From assembly GCA_913055845.1 (NCBI GenBank), contig CAJXKO010000013.1, positions 1 through 43,854 on the forward strand: a stretch of 43,854 nt of DNA, in the 5' to 3' direction. Source of the DNA: an uncultured Bacteroidota bacterium (GTDB taxonomy: Bacteria; Bacteroidota; Rhodothermia; Rhodothermales; Salinibacteraceae). The position numbers were made by a program, and so were the translations under genes. Positions 2,059-22,897 of this stretch are shown one piece after another. The notes below the pieces were generated by a model, which saw only the letters and a list, made by a program, of their open reading frames with translations, searched no databases and was not told where the DNA came from. Within the stretch, counting starts at the first letter, position 1, and every line of letters starts with the position of its first letter.

Positions 2059-3276
2059 CTAGTACTTCGGCACATCCGCGTCGATCTCGTCACTCCATGC
2101 AAGAACGCCGCCGGCGAGGTTGGACGCGTTGTAGCCCTTTTCGCGCAGAAACTCGGTGGCCTTCGCCGAGCGACCGCCCGAGCGGCAGTGCACCACAATC
2201 TCGTCGCCCGGACTTGCCTCCAGTTCATCGAGGCGATCCTCCAACTCGTCGACTGGGATAAGCTGGTCGGCGTCGATGCTGGCAATGTCGGCCTCGTACG
2301 GCTCGCGCACGTCGAGCACGAACGGGGCATCGCCCGCGTCGCGTCGCCGCTTGAGGTCGTGAACGGAGAGTTCGGGGATGGCGTTGTCGGAGTCGGACAC
2401 GTCAGCGTCGGCAGTTCCGTTTGTGGAGGCATCGTTGTCTTGCGGAATCCCGCAAAACGCCTCGTAGTCGATCAGTTCCGTCACTGTCGGATTTTCGCCG
2501 CAGACCGGGCAGTCCGGATTCGTGGGGACGTTGACCGTGCGGAAGTCCATGCTCAGGGCGTCCACCATTAGCAAGCGTCCGATTAGGGGCTCCCCCACGT
2601 CGGCCAGAAGCTTAATGACCTCGGTGGCCTGCAGCGTGCCGATGAGGCCGGGGAGGATGCCGAGCACGCCGCCCTCGGCGCAGGACGGGACGAGACCCGG
2701 TGGGGGCGGCTCTTCGTAGAGACAGCGGTAGCAGGGGCCGTCCTCGGTGGCGAAGACGGAGACTTGGCCCTCAAACCGGAAGATGGATGCGTAGACGTTG
2801 GGTGTGCCCGTCATCACGCAGGCGTCGTTGACGAGGTAGCGGGTGGGAAAATTGTCCGTCCCGTCGGCCACCACGTCGTAGTCGTCGATGATGCCGAGCG
2901 CGTTGTCGCTTGTGAGCCGCACCTCGTGCCGCTCCACCTCCACGTGTGGGTTGAGGTCTTCCAGGCGCTCGGACGCGGCGTCCAGTTTGGGCCGCCCTAC
3001 GTCGCTCGTGCCGTAGAGAATCTGACGCTGGAGGTTGGAGGCCTCCACGGTGTCGAAGTCGACGAGGCCGATCCGCCCCACGCCCGCGGCGGCGAGGTAG
3101 GTGGCGGCGGGCGAGCCGAGGCCCCCCGCGCCGACGAGGAGGACGGACGCGTTCTTGAGTTTCTCCTGCCCCTCCCGGCCAAATTCAGGCAGCGTCAGGT
3201 GACGGCTGTAGCGCTGGAGTTCCTCCGAGGTCAGTTCGGCCTGCGTCTCGTCGGGTGCTGCTGTGGTTGTAGACAT
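2059..3276 (-). CDS. moeZ: MoeZ/MoeB-like adenylyltransferase-sulfurtransferase (E1-like + rhodanese)
   Basis: Encodes 405 residues. The N-terminal E1-like ThiF/MoeB domain (about 20-270) has the nucleotide loop GAGGLGSPAATYLAAAGVG, the following LVDFDTVEASNLQRQ, and two CxxC pairs (CYRC and CPVC) that would bind zinc. A rhodanese domain fills the last ~110 residues with the active-site loop HCRSGGRS. Such fusions adenylate the C-terminal Gly of a ubiquitin-like sulfur carrier and pass persulfide sulfur to it, leaving a thiocarboxylate. The natural partner here is CysO, encoded just upstream, as MoeZ serves CysO in mycobacteria. The start is set at the ATG of MSTTTAAPDE, because the roughly 80 residues that an upstream start would add look non-coding. 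Last gene of the cysM-mec-cysO-moeZ operon. Confidence 0.92.
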   Translation of the reverse strand: MSTTTAAPDETQAELTSEELQRYSRHLTLPEFGREGQEKLKNASVLLVGAGGLGSPAATYLAAAGVGRIGLVDFDTVEASNLQRQILYGTSDVGRPKLDAASERLEDLNPHVEVERHEVRLTSDNALGIIDDYDVVADGTDNFPTRYLVNDACVMTGTPNVYASIFRFEGQVSVFATEDGPCYRCLYEEPPPPGLVPSCAEGGVLGILPGLIGTLQATEVIKLLADVGEPLIGRLLMVDALSMDFRTVNVPTNPDCPVCGENPTVTELIDYEAFCGIPQDNDASTNGTADADVSDSDNAIPELSVHDLKRRRDAGDAPFVLDVREPYEADIASIDADQLIPVDELEDRLDELEASPGDEIVVHCRSGGRSAKATEFLREKGYNASNLAGGVLAWSDEIDADVPKY

Positions 3277-3439: not shown

Positions 3440-3733
3440 TCACCCACCCGCAATCGACGGAACGATGGACACCTCGTCACCCGACTCCAGCGCGGTGTGG
3501 ACGCCGTCGCCGAAGCGTACGTCTTCATCGCCCACGTAGATATTCACGAATTGGCGAAGCTCGTCGTTCTCGTTGTAGAGGTTGTCGGCGAGGTCAGGGT
3601 AGCGGTCCACGAGGGTGCGGAGCGCCGTGTCCACCGTGTCGGCCTCCACGTCGACGGTCGACTGGCCGTCGGTGGCGGAGCGGAGCGGCGTCGGGATGCG
3701 TACGGTGACGGTGGTGGTTTCAGTCGTTGGCAT
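3440..3733 (-). CDS. cysO: CysO-like sulfur carrier protein (ubiquitin fold, C-terminal Gly-Gly)
   Basis: Encodes 97 residues of the MoaD/ThiS beta-grasp family, ending SIVPSIAGG. The free terminal Gly-Gly is the site that MoeZ would adenylate and convert to a thiocarboxylate. The segment FVNIYVGDEDVRFGDG closely matches, from memory, the equivalent segment of mycobacterial CysO, which also ends AVAGG. This supports CysO over MoaD or ThiS. The ATG of MPTTETTT is chosen because the upstream in-frame residues are low-complexity and the family begins near this point. It is flanked by mec (upstream) and moeZ (downstream) on the same strand. No extra residues follow the Gly-Gly, so no proteolytic activation would be needed. 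Confidence 0.9.
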   Translation of the reverse strand: MPTTETTTVTVRIPTPLRSATDGQSTVDVEADTVDTALRTLVDRYPDLADNLYNENDELRQFVNIYVGDEDVRFGDGVHTALESGDEVSIVPSIAGG

Positions 3734-3895: not shown

Positions 3896-4333
3896 CTACA
3901 TAAGTTCAGGGTCGGGCAAAACAATGTCCTCCCTCCGAAACTCCGAGCGGTTGAGGGCGAGGGTCCAAGCGGTCACCGCGTCGGGCGTGCCGTCGTGAAC
4001 GGAAACGATGACATACGTGTAGCCGGGGAAAGTCGCCTCCGCTAGGTCTGTCTCCGACGGGCGGGCCGGGTGGTCGGGGTGCGAGTGGTAGATGCCCACT
4101 ACGTCGAGGTCCTGCTCCTGCGCCGCCGCGTCCGCCCGGCGATAGTCATCCGCAGTGAGTTCGTAGCGCCGCTCGCGGTTCTCGGCGCGGCGATTCGTGG
4201 CCTGGTGCAGTGCCGTGACGCGGTTCGTGCCCTTGCCCGTCACGGTACCGAGCAGAAAGCCGCAGCCTTCCTCGGGGTAGGCGTCGGCACCATGTTGGCG
4301 GATGGCGTTCAGGATCGAATTCGTCGTTTCCAT
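3896..4333 (-). CDS. mec: JAMM/MPN zinc peptidase, Mec-like (CysO-cysteine hydrolase)
   Basis: Encodes 145 residues, essentially one JAMM domain. The complete signature is visible: Glu22 in EGCGFLLG, then His83-Ser-His85, Ser93 and Asp96 in HSHPDHPARPSETD, giving the HxHx7Sx2D zinc site. In actinobacteria the homologue Mec cleaves cysteine from the C-terminus of the CysO-cysteine adduct. The position here between cysM and cysO makes the same reaction the best hypothesis. Similar JAMM proteins also act as deubiquitinase-like enzymes on other sulfur carriers, but the operon supports Mec. ATG at 4333, directly followed by ETTNSILN. A palindromic repeat separates it from cysM. Confidence 0.9.
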   Translation of the reverse strand: METTNSILNAIRQHGADAYPEEGCGFLLGTVTGKGTNRVTALHQATNRRAENRERRYELTADDYRRADAAAQEQDLDVVGIYHSHPDHPARPSETDLAEATFPGYTYVIVSVHDGTPDAVTAWTLALNRSEFRREDIVLPDPELM

Positions 4334-4363
4334 CAGGATCTGTGTCGGTGAAAGAGGCCGATT

Positions 4364-4441
4364 GATGCGTGAAACGTGACACGTGAGGGGGGCTCCTCAT
4401 TGGGGATCGTCCCCTCTTGGGAATAACGTCCCACGTATCAC
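4364..4441. repeat. Intergenic palindromic repeat, copy A (degenerate)
   Basis: The left arm GATGCGTGAAACGTGACACG at 4364-4383, continuing to 4390, is almost identical to the left arm of copy C at 10878. The right side keeps only CACGTATCAC (4432-4441) of the family. It lies between mec and cysM and its right end overlaps the cysM stop codon. See copies B and C in the RND operon. Confidence 0.65.
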
Positions 4442-5388
4442 TCCTCAGTCCAAAAGTCATCGCTCAGATACCGCGTGCCGGTGTCGCAGAGGATGGTGAC
4501 CACGACGCCCGCTTCCAGCGAACGGGCCACGTCGAGCGCGGTGGCCACGTTTGCACCGGCCGAGGGGCCCACAAGCAGGCCCTCGCTCCGGGCCAGCCGG
4601 CGCGTCATAGCGACCGCCGTTTCGGTGGTGCACGTGCGGTGGGCGTCTGCGAGGTCGGCGTCGTACAGCCCGGGCACAATGGCCGTCTCCATATGCTTCA
4701 GGCCTTCCAGGCCGTGCATCGCCGTCTCCGGCTGCAGGGCGATGCCCTGGATCGACGGGTCGTGCGCCTTCAGTCGGCGCGTGACGCCCATGAACGTGCC
4801 GGTGGTGCCGAGACCGGCCACGAAATGCGTCACCTGGCCCTCGGTCTGTTCCAGAATCTCGGCGCCCGTGCCGTCGTAGTGGGCCTGCCAGTTCGCGTCG
4901 TTGTTGTATTGGTCGGGGTAGAAGTAGCGGTCGGGCTCCGCCGCCACCAGTTCCTTTACCCGCTCTTGGGCCCCATCCGTCCCGGTCATGGGGTCCGTCA
5001 GAATGAGCTCAGCGCCGTAGGCCCGTAGCACTTTTTTGCGCTCTTCGGACGCGTTTTTGGGGAGGGCGAGCGTCACGTCCAGTCCCTTTGCGGCCCCGAT
5101 CATGGCATAAGCGATGCCCGTGTTGCCACTCGTCGCGTCGATAAGCGTCTGGTCGCGACGAAACGCACCGGAGTCGAGCCCCGCTTCGATCATACGAAGG
5201 GCCGGCCGATCTTTCACTGAGCCGCCGGGATTAAGGTGCTCCGCCTTGGCATAGACCGAGACCGTCCCCGGCAGGTCGGTCGCAAGGCTATCGAGTCGCA
5301 GCAGAGGGGTTTGGCCGATGGCGTCGACCAAGTCCGACGCAGGTCGGGCGACGGCGGAGGACGAGGCAGGGGACACGGCAGTACTCAT
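4438..5388 (-). CDS. cysM: Cysteine synthase, CysM-like (PLP enzyme using CysO thiocarboxylate)
   Basis: Encodes 316 residues of fold-type II PLP enzyme. Visible landmarks are NPGGSVKDR with the Schiff-base Lys59, the substrate loop TSGNTG, and the PLP-phosphate glycine loop AGLGTTGT. In the CysO pathway this enzyme makes an aminoacrylate from O-phosphoserine (CysM of mycobacteria) and adds the CysO thiocarboxylate, leaving CysO-cysteine for Mec. An O-acetylserine/sulfide synthase cannot be excluded from sequence alone, but the mec-cysO-moeZ genes downstream strongly favour the carrier route. The ATG at 5388 (MSTAVSPASS) is chosen; another ATG lies 24 bases upstream. It is first in the operon and is preceded by a Cys-codon leader ORF and a terminator/antiterminator. 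Confidence 0.9.
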   Translation of the reverse strand: MSTAVSPASSSAVARPASDLVDAIGQTPLLRLDSLATDLPGTVSVYAKAEHLNPGGSVKDRPALRMIEAGLDSGAFRRDQTLIDATSGNTGIAYAMIGAAKGLDVTLALPKNASEERKKVLRAYGAELILTDPMTGTDGAQERVKELVAAEPDRYFYPDQYNNDANWQAHYDGTGAEILEQTEGQVTHFVAGLGTTGTFMGVTRRLKAHDPSIQGIALQPETAMHGLEGLKHMETAIVPGLYDADLADAHRTCTTETAVAMTRRLARSEGLLVGPSAGANVATALDVARSLEAGVVVTILCDTGTRYLSDDFWTEE

Positions 5389-5419
5389 CGGCGAAAAAGA
5401 CAGAGTGATCAAAAGAAAA

Positions 5420-5447
5420 AGCCTCTCACGGACACACCGGAGAGGCT
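5420..5447 (-). terminator. Intrinsic terminator in the cysM leader (attenuator)
   Basis: Read on the minus strand, AGCCTCTC (5447-5440) is followed by CGG, a TGTGT loop, CCG, a bulged T, then GAGAGGCT (5427-5420). The run TTTTTCTTTT comes immediately after. This is a textbook Rho-independent terminator, but it lies 31 bases before the cysM start codon, so it would stop transcription before the operon. Its left arm can pair instead with an upstream segment (5518-5526), see the antiterminator entry. Confidence 0.88.
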
Positions 5448-5526
5448 ACAGGGGCAAGCAGAATGTCGGGGCGAACCTCAGCGCTCGGTCGCAGGGGGCA
5501 GGGCCCCGATCAGACGCAGCCTCTCC
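5439..5526 (-). promoter_or_regulatory. Antiterminator pairing competing with the cysM-leader terminator
   Basis: In the minus-strand transcript GGAGAGGCT (5526-5518) is a perfect 9-nt complement of AGCCTCTCC (5447-5439), which is the left arm of the terminator hairpin. Segment 1:2 pairing would destroy the terminator (2:3), the hallmark of transcription attenuation. The leader ORF stop codon (5480-5478) lies between segments 1 and 2. A ribosome that finishes the ORF would sit between the two segments and favour the terminator. One stalled at the Cys codons upstream of segment 1 would leave both free to pair. The pairing is seen directly; the mechanism is inferred. Confidence 0.8.
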
Positions 5527-5615
5527 GTGGAGGACCGACAGCACCGACAGCAACACCGGATCGCATCCGGCGCCACGGTCGTCCAGACCGCAATGGAAGA
5601 GGCAGGCGAGAGCAT
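5478..5615 (-). CDS. Cysteine-codon leader peptide upstream of cysM (45 aa)
   Basis: A short ORF, ATG at 5615 to TGA at 5478, encodes 45 residues. Residues 21-27 are CCCRCCR, from codons TGT TGC TGT CGG TGC TGT CGG. Five Cys codons within seven is extreme, and the ORF sits directly ahead of a cysteine biosynthesis operon and its attenuator. The last Cys codon is 11 nt before antiterminator segment 1. It would be translated as a sensor: scarce Cys-tRNA stalls the ribosome and lets the antiterminator form. A GTG at 5576 in the same frame could give a shorter 32-residue version. No Shine-Dalgarno site is seen, as usual in this group. Polycysteine short ORFs are described as cysteine-responsive attenuators in mycobacteria; homology to those is not implied. 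Confidence 0.75.
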   Translation of the reverse strand: MLSPASSIAVWTTVAPDAIRCCCRCCRSSTERLRLIGALPPATER

Positions 5616-5642
5616 GAAGGGGGGTGAAAGCGTGAGATATCA

Positions 5643-5657
5643 ATGCCAAAACGGCAT
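5643..5657. promoter_or_regulatory. Small palindrome in the cysM-leader/deaminase divergent gap
   Basis: ATGCC, five bases, then GGCAT form a perfect inverted repeat at 5643-5657, 28 bases upstream of the leader ORF start. It could be an operator or part of the minus-strand promoter region. No factor is assigned. Confidence 0.35.
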
Positions 5658-5822
5658 GCTCTGCTACATTCCCATCCTCGAGAACGTTCCCGGGTCCACG
5701 CGGGCCCTCGTCATCGTCACATTTTTGAAGGGGATTCGCGTTTGGGAGGGGGCGGACGGGAACGGTCCGTCCTGCGCCGGATTTTGCACAGCCGAATCCT
5801 ACGTGCCCCACCCTGCTGCGCC

Positions 5823-6299
5823 ATGCACGCGTCCGCCGACGCACTCGATCACGAACGCTTCCTCCGCGCTGCCATCCAGGAGGCTTTGTCGTCCAAAGAG
5901 TCCGGCAATCCGCCGTTCGGGGCCGTACTGGTGGGGGCGGAGGGCACCGTCCTGGACCGGGCCGGCAACACGGAGGCGCGAACGGGGGACTGCACAGGCC
6001 ATGCCGAAACCAATCTTGTCCGTGCCGCCTCGCAGCAGTACGAGATGGATCGATTGCAGGACGCAACCCTCTACGCCAGCACGGAGCCGTGCGCCATGTG
6101 TGCGGGGGCGATCTTCTGGGCTCGCATCGGGCAGGTGGTGTTTGGCCTGCGGGCAGAGCGACACTACGAGATGAAGGGTGAGGCCGGGCGCCAGCTCCAC
6201 CTATCGTGTCGCGAGGTGCTTGATCGGGGAAACCACGACGTAGCGGTCGTTGGGCCGGTACTCGAAGACGAGGCCGCGGCTGTTTTCGGGGAAGAATGA
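5823..6299 (+). CDS. Nucleoside/tRNA-type deaminase (CDA fold)
   Basis: Encodes 158 residues of the cytidine deaminase-like superfamily. The zinc site is complete: HAE in TGHAETNLVRAA supplies the first ligand and catalytic Glu, and PCAMC in STEPCAMCAGAIFW supplies the two Cys. The PCxxC spacing and NPPFGAVLVG N-terminus place it with the TadA/guanine-deaminase branch of small nucleoside deaminases. The substrate cannot be decided by eye. A clearer guanine deaminase is encoded at 30959-31441, so this one may act on another base or nucleoside. The ATG at 5823 is chosen because upstream in-frame residues are unlike the family. It is divergent from the cysM leader. Confidence 0.8.
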   Translation: MHASADALDHERFLRAAIQEALSSKESGNPPFGAVLVGAEGTVLDRAGNTEARTGDCTGHAETNLVRAASQQYEMDRLQDATLYASTEPCAMCAGAIFWARIGQVVFGLRAERHYEMKGEAGRQLHLSCREVLDRGNHDVAVVGPVLEDEAAAVFGEE

Positions 6300-6420
6300 C
6301 GTAGAGCACAGTCGTAGGGGCACGGAGGACTTGTAACGATGCAGGGCGGAAGCAGTCGAAGAACGACCCCCGCATCGAACCAGACTCGAAGCTCCGGGTA
6401 GCACTTGCCTCCACGCAGTT

Positions 6421-6438
6421 CCCGCGGCCCGCCGCGGG
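6421..6438. promoter_or_regulatory. GC-rich hairpin upstream of the RND operon
   Basis: CCCGCGG (6421-6427) and CCGCGGG (6432-6438) form a perfect 7-bp stem with a CCCG loop, 31 bases before the adaptor ATG. It is followed by AGGTCTTTG, not a true T-tract. It may be a weak terminator for the deaminase gene or an mRNA leader structure; it could also be an operator palindrome. Confidence 0.4.
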
Positions 6439-6469
6439 GAGGTCTTTGTTGGATTCTTTTGCTAGTTCC

Positions 6470-7588
6470 ATGAGCAATTCCGCGTCGTCCGCCTCGTCGG
6501 AGTCCGCCCCCGAAGAGACGGGCTGGTCGTCTCGAACCAAGCGCTTGCTGGCCGTCGGCCTCACCGTTGTCGTACTCGTCGGGCTGGCCCTCCCCAAGAT
6601 TAGTGGCTCCGAATCCTCCTCCGGAAGCGATAGCGGATCGAGCGACGCCCCGACACGCGTGGATGCGACTGTAGTGCAGCCTGGAATCGTGACGGAACGG
6701 ATTCGCACCACAGGCACGCTACGGGCCGATGAGTCGGTAGAGGTAGCGAGCGAGGCCTCGGGCAAGATCACGGACATCCAGTTTGAGGAGGGCACGCGGG
6801 TTCAGCAGGGCGACCTGCTTGTGCAGATCAACGATTCGGAGCTGCAGGCGGAGAAACAGCGCCTGCAGCACCAGCTTCGACTAGCCGAAGACCGCGCCGA
6901 GCGCCAAAGGCAGTTGCTGGCCGAAGGGGGCGTGAGTCAGGAAGAGTACGACGCCACCGTGAACGAGGTGGAGGTCTTGAAGGCCGACCTGAAGCTTGTG
7001 GAGGCACGCATCGAGAAAACGAAGGTCCGTGCCCCATTCGACGGCGTCGTGGGACTGCGAGCAGTGAGCGAGGGCGCGTATTTGAGCCCACAGACGCGAA
7101 TCACGACGCTGCAGCGCATCGATCCGGTCAAGGTCAACTTCTCAGTGTCCGAAAAATACGCCTCCCGAGTGGGCCCGGGCCAGTCTGTTATGTTCAGCGT
7201 ACGGGGGCGCGAGGACCGCATGACGGGGGAAGTCTACGCGACTGACACGGAGGTCGACTCCGACACCCGTACCCTCCAGCTACGTGCCCGTGCCCCAAAT
7301 CCCGGTGGCATGCTCCGCCCCGGCATGTTTGCCGACGTGACCGTTACCCTTGGCACCATCGACGACGCCATCGTAGTGCCGTCCTTCGCCGTGCTCCCCA
7401 CCCTTGATGGCCAACGCGTCTTCGTCGTCGAAAACGGCACCGCTCAACCGCGCAACGTTGCGCTCGGCGTCCGCACCGACTCCACCGTGCAGGTGACCGA
7501 CGGTCTTGCGCTCCGCGACACGGTCATTACGTCCGGCATCCAAGAAATGCGCGCCGGGCTGCCGGTTCGGATTGAGACGCTCGAATGA
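6470..7588 (+). CDS. RND efflux periplasmic adaptor (membrane fusion protein, HlyD/AcrA family)
   Basis: Encodes 372 residues. After a Ser/Glu-rich cytoplasmic tail comes a single membrane segment (RLLAVGLTVVVLVGLALPKI, about residues 24-43). A biotinyl-lipoyl-like hairpin follows (EVASEASGKITDIQFEEGTRVQQGDLLVQI), then a coiled-coil with Gln/Arg/Glu heptads and the second lipoyl half (VRAPFDGVVGLRAVSEGAYL). The remainder is beta-barrel and membrane-proximal domain. It links the inner-membrane pump encoded next with the outer-membrane channel further down. The ATG at 6470 is preferred to the TTG at 6446. There is no lipobox, so it is anchored by the transmembrane helix. The three genes run in order adaptor-pump-channel on one strand. 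Confidence 0.92.
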   Translation: MSNSASSASSESAPEETGWSSRTKRLLAVGLTVVVLVGLALPKISGSESSSGSDSGSSDAPTRVDATVVQPGIVTERIRTTGTLRADESVEVASEASGKITDIQFEEGTRVQQGDLLVQINDSELQAEKQRLQHQLRLAEDRAERQRQLLAEGGVSQEEYDATVNEVEVLKADLKLVEARIEKTKVRAPFDGVVGLRAVSEGAYLSPQTRITTLQRIDPVKVNFSVSEKYASRVGPGQSVMFSVRGREDRMTGEVYATDTEVDSDTRTLQLRARAPNPGGMLRPGMFADVTVTLGTIDDAIVVPSFAVLPTLDGQRVFVVENGTAQPRNVALGVRTDSTVQVTDGLALRDTVITSGIQEMRAGLPVRIETLE

Positions 7589-21844: not shown

Positions 21845-22897
21845 TTACGGCACGTACCAGATGCCGCGGGCCTGGTCCAGCCAGTCGCCCACCACGATGT
21901 GGGGCAGCGCCAGAATGCAGACGAACACGGTGTAGAAGGCAACGGCCCCGGCCAGCAGCGACGCCCCGCCGAGCGGATTAGGGACGAGTGCGTAGAGGGC
22001 AGCCATGAGGCCGAACGTGGCGAGGGCCCCAATCACCATCGTGGCCCAGGTGCGTGGCAGCGAGAGGCGGTCCGGGGCGGGCGTGTTGGGGGCAATCGCC
22101 GTGGTGCGGGCTGTCTGTCGTAGGGTGTACCAGAGCGGAAAGTACAGCCCCACGGCCAGCATCATGGGCACGAACGTGAAGTAGACAATTAGTAGTGTCG
22201 TCTCGGCCAGATCAGTCCACCACGCGGCCGATCCTCCGCTCCGGAGAAAGCCCCCGCTTAGGTGCACGATCACGGCGAGACCGTAAACGCCCCCCACGGC
22301 GGCTTGCACGGTGGGGAGATGTGTGGCGAGGGGCAGGGGGCCCGTGGCGCCGAAGATGTGTACCATGTAGGTCGAAAACCCGATGTAGACGCCCGGCCAC
22401 ACCAGCAGCGGCACCAGCATCACCGCGCCGCCCCGCACAAACGCCGCGAGAGCGCGTTGCCAGGATGCCTGTAGATGATCGGTCCCGCACAGCGCGTCCA
22501 TCACTTTCAGGCCGCCGTGTCCACCCTTGACCACAGCAGTCGAGAACGCAAGTGCCAGTGCCGCCACGGGCGCGACGAAGAAGAAGCCCACGAAGGCCGC
22601 GAGGAAGCCGAGGTACAGCACGATGTAGCGCAGGCTGAACGAGACCCGGCGGTGGCGCAGGTTCTCGAAGTGCTCGTAGCCGCCGTGCGGCAGATTGAGT
22701 GCCACCATGCCGATGAGGTAGCCCACCATCTGCGTGGTCATCGACAGGGACATGTTCAGTAGGGCCGCCCCAATGCCCCCCAGCGCCAGAGCCCCGAGGG
22801 TGATGCGCGAGCCCCAGACGGCCATGGACGCAGGGGAGTGCGCCGGGGCCTGGCGCGTAGGAGCACGGGGGGACGAAGCGGTCGACAGCGTGGCCAT
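21845..22897 (-). CDS. blh: Beta-carotene 15,15'-dioxygenase, Brp/Blh family
   Basis: Encodes 350 residues with about eight or nine membrane segments. The Brp/Blh metal-site motifs are present: NLPHGGYEHFE near residue 68, KGGHGGLKVMD, and ALPHIVVGDWLD at the C-terminus, each carrying the histidines expected to bind iron. The enzyme cleaves beta-carotene into two retinals, the chromophore of microbial rhodopsins such as the one at 28584-29279. It is directly downstream of crtI. The ATG at 22897 (MATLST) is preferred to a TTG seven codons upstream. A typical member has a similar length. Confidence 0.88.
   Translation of the reverse strand: MATLSTASSPRAPTRQAPAHSPASMAVWGSRITLGALALGGIGAALLNMSLSMTTQMVGYLIGMVALNLPHGGYEHFENLRHRRVSFSLRYIVLYLGFLAAFVGFFFVAPVAALALAFSTAVVKGGHGGLKVMDALCGTDHLQASWQRALAAFVRGGAVMLVPLLVWPGVYIGFSTYMVHIFGATGPLPLATHLPTVQAAVGGVYGLAVIVHLSGGFLRSGGSAAWWTDLAETTLLIVYFTFVPMMLAVGLYFPLWYTLRQTARTTAIAPNTPAPDRLSLPRTWATMVIGALATFGLMAALYALVPNPLGGASLLAGAVAFYTVFVCILALPHIVVGDWLDQARGIWYVP

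Follow-up and report, generated by a model that had tools for sequence, protein, structure and literature searches.

A candidate Cys-tRNA-sensing leader-peptide attenuator ahead of a cysM-mec-cysO-moeZ operon in Rhodothermales

The leader region and the operon

In the window, which is the whole stretch of 43,854 bases analysed here, a short ORF stands between a candidate promoter, recognized by motif match only, and the first gene of a four-gene operon on the minus strand. The sequence-only reading had described this ORF as having 45 codons, with CCCRCCR at residues 21–27, and as lying 89 bases before cysM. This proved exact on re-translation: minus-strand positions 5478–5615 encode MLSPASSIAVWTTVAPDAIRCCCRCCRSSTERLRLIGALPPATER*, and 89 bases separate the ORF from cysM, whose ATG is at 5388. 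The features discussed below are the following, in the order of transcription.

5665..5690, minus strand: promoter-like element GGAACG-N17-GTA, 49 nt ahead of the leader ATG (motif match)
5478..5615, minus strand: leader ORF, 45 codons and a stop, with 30 nt from the stop to the terminator
5538..5555, minus strand: putative regulatory codons Cys21-Cys23, Arg24 and Cys25-Cys26 (CCCRCC, residues 21–26; translation, shuffles, genus alignment)
5515..5527, minus strand: candidate antiterminator strand (strand 2, with CGGAGAGGCTGCG as its core), located within the ORF, 10 nt past the last Cys codon
5437..5447, minus strand: strand 3, the 5' arm of the terminator, common to the antiterminator (folding, pairing, covariation table)
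5411..5447, minus strand: predicted intrinsic terminator, hairpin 5447–5420 (−18.4 kcal/mol) and T-rich tract 5419–5411
4438..5388, minus strand: cysM, cysteine synthase family, first operon gene (best NCBIfam model TIGR01138 cysM, 345.1 bits, below its cut-off of 394.2)
3896..4333, minus strand: mec-like JAB/JAMM protein (desampylase model below cut-off; PF14464 above cut-off)
3440..3733, minus strand: cysO-like ubiquitin-fold sulfur carrier (SAMP1 and archaeal MoaD models above cut-off; PF02597)
2059..3276, minus strand: moeZ-like adenylyltransferase with a rhodanese domain (MoeB models PRK08762 and PRK05690 above cut-offs; MoeZ model PRK07878 below)

The NCBI curated cut-offs are exceeded by the SAMP1 and two MoeB models and missed by those for CysM, Mec (NCBIfam) and MoeZ; the gene names used here therefore rest on best match and gene order. 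In the CysO pathway, MoeZR loads sulfur onto CysO, CysM adds O-phosphoserine and Mec+ frees cysteine (PMC3227635). Judged by best match and gene order, cysM-mec-cysO-moeZ of the window would encode parts of this CysO-dependent cysteine pathway.

The claim that the Cys density of the ORF is above chance was borne out. In 100 dinucleotide shuffles of the 350-base stretch 5' of cysM, the Cys count in nine codons was never equalled, and five Cys per seven codons occur in the leader ORF alone on both strands of the 43,854 bases. The pattern TGYTGYTGYNNNTGYTGY has two matches in the window's own draft genome, one of which is the leader ORF; the second lies, in our reading, on the strand opposite a Gln-rich part of another gene and was rejected. 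Another stretch, CWCRCWC at 22419 on the minus strand, is apparently an out-of-frame stretch inside a coding region.

Between the leader ORF and cysM, AGCCTCTCCGGTGTGTCCGTGAGAGGCTTTTTCTTTT (5447–5411) forms a bulged hairpin followed by a T-rich tract. The segment CGGAGAGGCTGCG (5527–5515) is complementary to the 5' arm of this hairpin and to the bases preceding that arm, and the best antiterminator duplex in the window reaches −34.9 kcal/mol, with none of 200 shuffles of the region pairing equally well. The sequence-only reading was right about the ORF and its Cys codons and had overlooked both the terminator and the antiterminator strand. A simple terminator scan did not list this bulged hairpin and gave two terminator-like matches on the other strand, and a sigma-70 promoter scan gave one promoter-like match, located within cysM; both scans were superseded by folding. 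An Rfam search of positions 4300–6500 (E up to 5) returned only MIR528, at 17.3 bits against a cut-off of 62, so by Rfam the leader region is not a known riboswitch or T-box. The nearest family-supported gene upstream of the leader, a deaminase (5823–6299), is on the plus strand, and hence no other transcript is apparent for the terminator.

The promoter-like element was found at other loci of the order as well: among the 39 order loci, GAAC[GT]-N15..18-GT[AT] lies ahead of the ORF in 30 (L021, one of the 39, offered only 8 nt to search), and among 18 genus representatives in 13, compared with 0.5 expected from shuffles. We take its layout to resemble that of ECF sigma factor promoters. The 49 nt from motif to ATG would make a leaderless start, with the ATG at the 5' end of the transcript, unlikely. 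In actinomycetes, the alternative sigma factors SigH and SigR answer the thiol oxidizer diamide, and SigH controls several sulfur genes (PMC3141025); a link to the leader promoter is only a guess. The sequence AATGTGACGA, at 5714–5723 on the minus strand, recurs 33–34 nt upstream of the GGAACG box in seven of the 11 genus loci and is a possible activator site.

Conservation of the leader and of its reading frame

At an E value of 1e-60 or better, cysM was found in 11 of 13 genomes of the genus, 24 of 27 of the family and 42 of 114 of the order. It adjoins mec at 39 of the 42 order loci, which represent 18 genera, and cysO and moeZ were seen at 38 of these 39 (the stretch of L026 ends early). 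To be scored as a leader, a short ORF had to contain three or more Cys within five codons and to be followed, 10–45 nt past its stop, by the start of a terminator. By this criterion, a leader and its terminator precede cysM at all 39 order loci with the operon, compared with 0/39 on the reverse strand and 0/39 in one shuffle of each locus. The comparison across relatives that had been proposed for this ORF thus came out in its favour: all 39 order loci keep the clustered Cys codons and the position of the stop relative to the terminator, and most of the remaining residues vary. It also points to a short gene ahead of the operon at every order locus examined.

The Cys cluster is reached by at most five of 100 shuffles at 31 of the 39 loci and by more than five (up to 69) at the remaining eight (L013, L014, L015, L020, L023, L024, L028 and L038); because shuffles reach their clusters more often, it is position and comparison that carry the case for these eight. 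Across 54 loci (253,914 nt), 34 five-in-seven Cys clusters fall in the sense-strand leader zone and five elsewhere, and four of these five belong to the second, Cys/Met leader described below. A genome-wide search of the order for (TGY)5 gave matches in 98 of 114 genomes and for that reason was not used as evidence. Two columns of the genus alignment hold Cys in all 11 sequences and a third holds it in nine of 11, with exchange between TGT and TGC. Residues outside the cluster mostly drift, and the peptides are scarcely alike across genera. Two named loci, from Salinivenus sp. (L065) and Roseithermus (L066), carry the same leaders as L012, a locus of the window's genus, and L032, respectively; both are Rhodothermales, Rhodothermota.

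In two genomes, G055 and G056, cysM stands alone, mec and cysO being absent from the stretch examined (L045 and L044, respectively), and no leader precedes it; nor was one found before the match of G057 or the second match of G055, which are cysK-like and 40–41% identical. The best Cys clusters before the lone cysM genes and the cysK-like paralogues were matched by 15–80 of 100 shuffles. Since the leader is absent before the lone cysM genes and the two cysK-like paralogues, it tracks the operon. At L044 and L045, a weak match to part of MoeZ precedes cysM.

At all 39 order loci, the Cys frame ends in a stop codon 25–42 nt before the terminator (median 30, SD 4.0), and this spacing is 22–32 nt at eight loci outside the order. 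In the other two frames, the position of the first stop varies widely, with SDs of 67 (from the 31 loci where one occurs) and 38 (27 loci). The distance from the T tract to the cysM match has an SD of 40, the tract starting 22–186 nt ahead of the match, and the last Cys codon precedes the end of the stop by 27–72 nt at the 39 order loci and by 60 nt in the window leader. As the spacing of the Cys-frame stop is narrow and the other frames scatter, the reading frame is constrained relative to the hairpin. In our view, this narrow spacing is the strongest sign that the ORF is translated. It is extremely improbable that the UGY repeat is an RNA site for protein binding in which the reading frame is incidental: the repeat is indeed conserved as DNA, but the stop position is kept in the Cys frame only, the interruptions are whole codons (Arg, Trp) and the Cys codons exchange TGT for TGC.

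Short Cys-rich proteins can bind metals, and the ORF might on this ground encode a functional Cys-rich peptide that binds metals or thiols, the terminator being merely its 3' end and cysM being expressed by leakage or from its own promoter. The narrow distance at which the terminator follows the ORF fits such a gene. We consider it very unlikely, as between genera the peptides are barely alike outside the Cys cluster, the leader peptide has no family match, the terminator has its pairing partner in the 3' half of the ORF, and the lone cysM genes are without such an ORF.

Pairing, folding and the proposed switch

The proposal of a leader-peptide attenuator made in the sequence-only reading gains support from the conservation, the stop spacing and the presence of a predicted terminator and antiterminator. 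As we now see it, the leader is very probably a ribosome-mediated transcription attenuator of the classical type, with charged Cys-tRNA as its signal. We infer the following course of promoter use, translation, stalling, termination and response to cysteine. RNA polymerase would start at the ECF-type promoter upstream and transcribe the leader ORF, with a ribosome trailing it. When cysteine is ample, the ribosome would pass the Cys codons and strand 2 to reach the stop; strand 3 would be left free, the 3:4 hairpin would form and transcription would stop ahead of cysM. When Cys-tRNA is scarce, the ribosome would halt on the Cys codons and leave strand 2 free, which would capture strand 3 as it emerges; the terminator would not form, and cysM-mec-cysO-moeZ would be transcribed.

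Antiterminator pairing was compared with shuffles at 48 loci with a terminator, 39 from the order and nine others. Left out were L145, L146, L147 and L162 (no Cys cluster), L102 (a polyCys ORF with an unclear terminator), 15 class loci, and L081 and L100. The Cys search stopped 70 nt short of cysM, hairpins were limited to 45 nt, the first of two leaders at L161 was deliberately skipped, and L021, which has a short flank, was taken whole. The antiterminator duplex was equalled by 10 or fewer of 200 shuffles at 28 of the 48 loci, compared with 2.4 expected, and at the other 20 more than 5% of shuffles equalled it; related sequences and between-genus differences in GC may inflate these figures. 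The same two factors bear on a swap test with one locus from each of 18 genera, in which own strands paired at −23.8 kcal/mol on average and swapped strands at −20.5, two of 20,000 permutations were as good as strand 2 with its own strand 3, and the own strand 3 ranked 14th or worse among the 18 partners in six genera.

Strand 3 positions vary jointly with both of their partners, in a table whose pairs are standard by construction; one strand 3 column, subject to the same construction, reads A-T-A at 15 loci, G-C-G at 20 and C-G-C at four. The pairing of strand 1 with strand 2, which would protect the terminator, is at most moderately supported across genera: 71 of 20,000 permutations were as good in the 18 genera, and in the window it is not significant, 79 of 200 shuffles being as good.

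The RNA was then folded with a ribosome in place, no pairing being permitted across it. When the RNA was cut before strand 4, strand 3 was mostly paired for one or more ribosome positions on the Cys codons, and mostly free when the ribosome stood on the stop, at 38 of the 48 loci, and at 32 of the 39 order loci (0.91 compared with 0.34 in the window). Equilibrium folding of the full leader was done for 44 of the 48 loci (omitting L021, L030, L033 and L035). Here, the terminator was favoured with the ribosome on every Cys codon at 26 of 44 loci, the window included (0.86–0.99). The ribosome-free window leader favoured the antiterminator, with a terminator probability of 0.00, unlike 41 of the 44 loci. 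Because equilibrium folding yields no clean switch, the proposed switch would need the co-transcriptional order of events.

Related leaders and a second, Cys/Met leader

Ribosome-mediated transcription attenuators of the trp, his, thr and ilv type are known from Proteobacteria. They share with the present leader a short ORF with cognate codons, an intrinsic terminator and a competing antiterminator strand; they differ from it in that the signal here would be cysteine, the operon belongs to the CysO pathway and the organisms are Rhodothermales, and in that strand 2 lies here within the ORF, 3' of the Cys codons, while the strand 1 pairing of the window is unconvincing. The predicted layout of the window leader is closer to trp/his-type attenuation than to the polycysteine ORFs of mycobacteria. 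Another comparison is with the Bacteroid-trp motif, a trp leader. This motif (RF01692), like the leader studied here, is a candidate cis-regulatory RNA, listed for Bacteroidetes (PMC2864571), but it concerns another amino acid and operon, and the window has no RF01692 match. As of 2010, the authors of one paper knew of leader-peptide systems shown only in Proteobacteria and Actinobacteria, to which they added Firmicutes (PMC2965389).

Polycysteine leaderless short ORFs have been described in mycobacteria (Canestrari et al. 2020, as cited in PMC9031893, PMC9094748 and PMC13236596), and those of Mycobacterium smegmatis regulate translation of downstream genes, according to a review (PMC9031893). 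The candidate cys leaders of Actinobacteria reportedly carry their Cys codons close to the stop and lack a conserved terminator, and a role of Rho was suggested (PMC1262725). The comparison with mycobacteria drawn in the sequence-only reading holds for the sensor, runs of Cys codons in a short ORF ahead of a cysteine operon being common to both; it fails for the output, which here appears to be a terminator/antiterminator pair. In the order loci the Cys codons end 27–72 nt from the end of the stop, and such a pair follows; with its 60 nt and its terminator, the window leader lies outside the actinobacterial polycysteine type. The best reading of these sequences is that of a terminator/antiterminator version of the actinobacterial Cys-tRNA sensor. 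The terminator switch would then be the feature that the actinobacterial leaders are reported to lack (PMC1262725), and the CysO-dependent pathway would gain a defined candidate feedback sensor outside Actinobacteria.

No earlier description of a Rhodothermota leader of this kind was found in the open-access literature among the matches listed. Searches of that literature for a cysM leader peptide with a terminator and for cysteine attenuators gave no match, and an earlier mention in Canestrari 2020 or Lopatovskaya 2010 is possible.

In two other families of the class (f16 and f20), all 15 genomes matched at 1e-80 have the four-gene operon and a polyCys ORF. Their leaders (L048–L062) carry five to nine Cys codons at or near the end of the ORF, and a terminator was found by the criterion in only one of 15, a layout that resembles the actinobacterial cys leaders, with Cys near the stop and no terminator. 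Several of these loci have, as seen by eye, a short inverted repeat around TTACCGG/CCGGTAA beyond the leader stop.

These sister families, together with the likeness of the sensor to the actinobacterial one, favour the possibility that the window leader acts on translation or through Rho, as proposed for actinobacterial polycysteine ORFs, and not through an intrinsic hairpin: 14 of the 15 loci have a polyCys ORF and lack a terminator by the criterion. For the order we regard this as improbable, as an intrinsic terminator and the narrow stop-to-terminator spacing are present at 39 of 39 loci, and the position of the hairpin relative to the cysM start is not constant, the T tract lying 22–186 nt before the match. 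Transcription attenuation by the hairpin remains our reading for the order. One sensor with two layouts in one bacterial class would amount to a natural experiment in which the output changes and the signal is kept.

Outside the class, a phylum sample of 395 genomes (43 matched at 1e-78) gave 20 loci, nine of which carry the compact four-gene operon. Leader and terminator were found at five of these nine, i.e. at five of the 20 loci (L148, L149, L161, L163 and L164). Among the best 80 of 575 named loci, 12 have a leader with a terminator, compared with 0/80 in controls, and a leader of this type was absent from the other 68 of these best 80. Six of the 12 re-find Rhodothermales leaders (L065–L068, L070 and L099), and six are from Pyrinomonadaceae/Acidobacteria (L069, L072, L074, L081, L100 and L126), L100 being the weakest.

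A second type of leader was observed in the sister families. Nine of their 15 loci were read divergently from cysM, and eight have a leader that mixes Cys and Met codons (L048, L051, L052, L054, L056, L057, L058 and L060; not L059), with stretches such as MCMCCMCCMC. It precedes a gene of the mercaptopyruvate-sulfurtransferase/rhodanese kind and a sulfite reductase gene (families named for L051). A class-wide search with the sister-family sulfite reductase matched 34 of 244 genomes, the window's own genome giving no match at 1e-90. A Cys/Met-rich ORF precedes sulfite reductase at 23 of 30 loci (L195–L211, L213–L215 and L220–L222), MSMPMCMCCMCCMCTAEGSGCNFPT from L195 being an example; it is absent from L212, which has only 14 nt of flank, and from L216–L219, L223 and L224. 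All 23 have a terminator 16–33 nt past the stop of this ORF, and at 22 of the 23 the antiterminator was equalled by 10 or fewer of 200 shuffles (the exception being L220).

These features make the second leader a candidate dual Cys/Met attenuator of the rhodanese-sulfite reductase operon or of the sulfite reductase gene; no paper on a Met/Cys leader was found by title in the open-access literature searched. Both leaders probably belong to one family of sulfur-amino-acid attenuators, present in at least two phyla, that swaps its output. A terminator/antiterminator would serve Rhodothermales, some genomes of other classes of the phylum and some Acidobacteriota; a terminator-less form with Cys near the stop would serve the sister families; and in these same families a dual Cys/Met sensor with a terminator would control the sulfurtransferase-sulfite reductase operon, divergent from the cysM operon.

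Two further observations concern loci outside the class. At L088 and L107, both from Acidobacteria, a polyCys ORF lies about 800–880 nt upstream of cysM and perhaps precedes another gene. At L161, the region 400–100 nt before the cysM match holds two successive polyCys ORFs, and a terminator-like hairpin follows each of them; these are apparently tandem attenuators.
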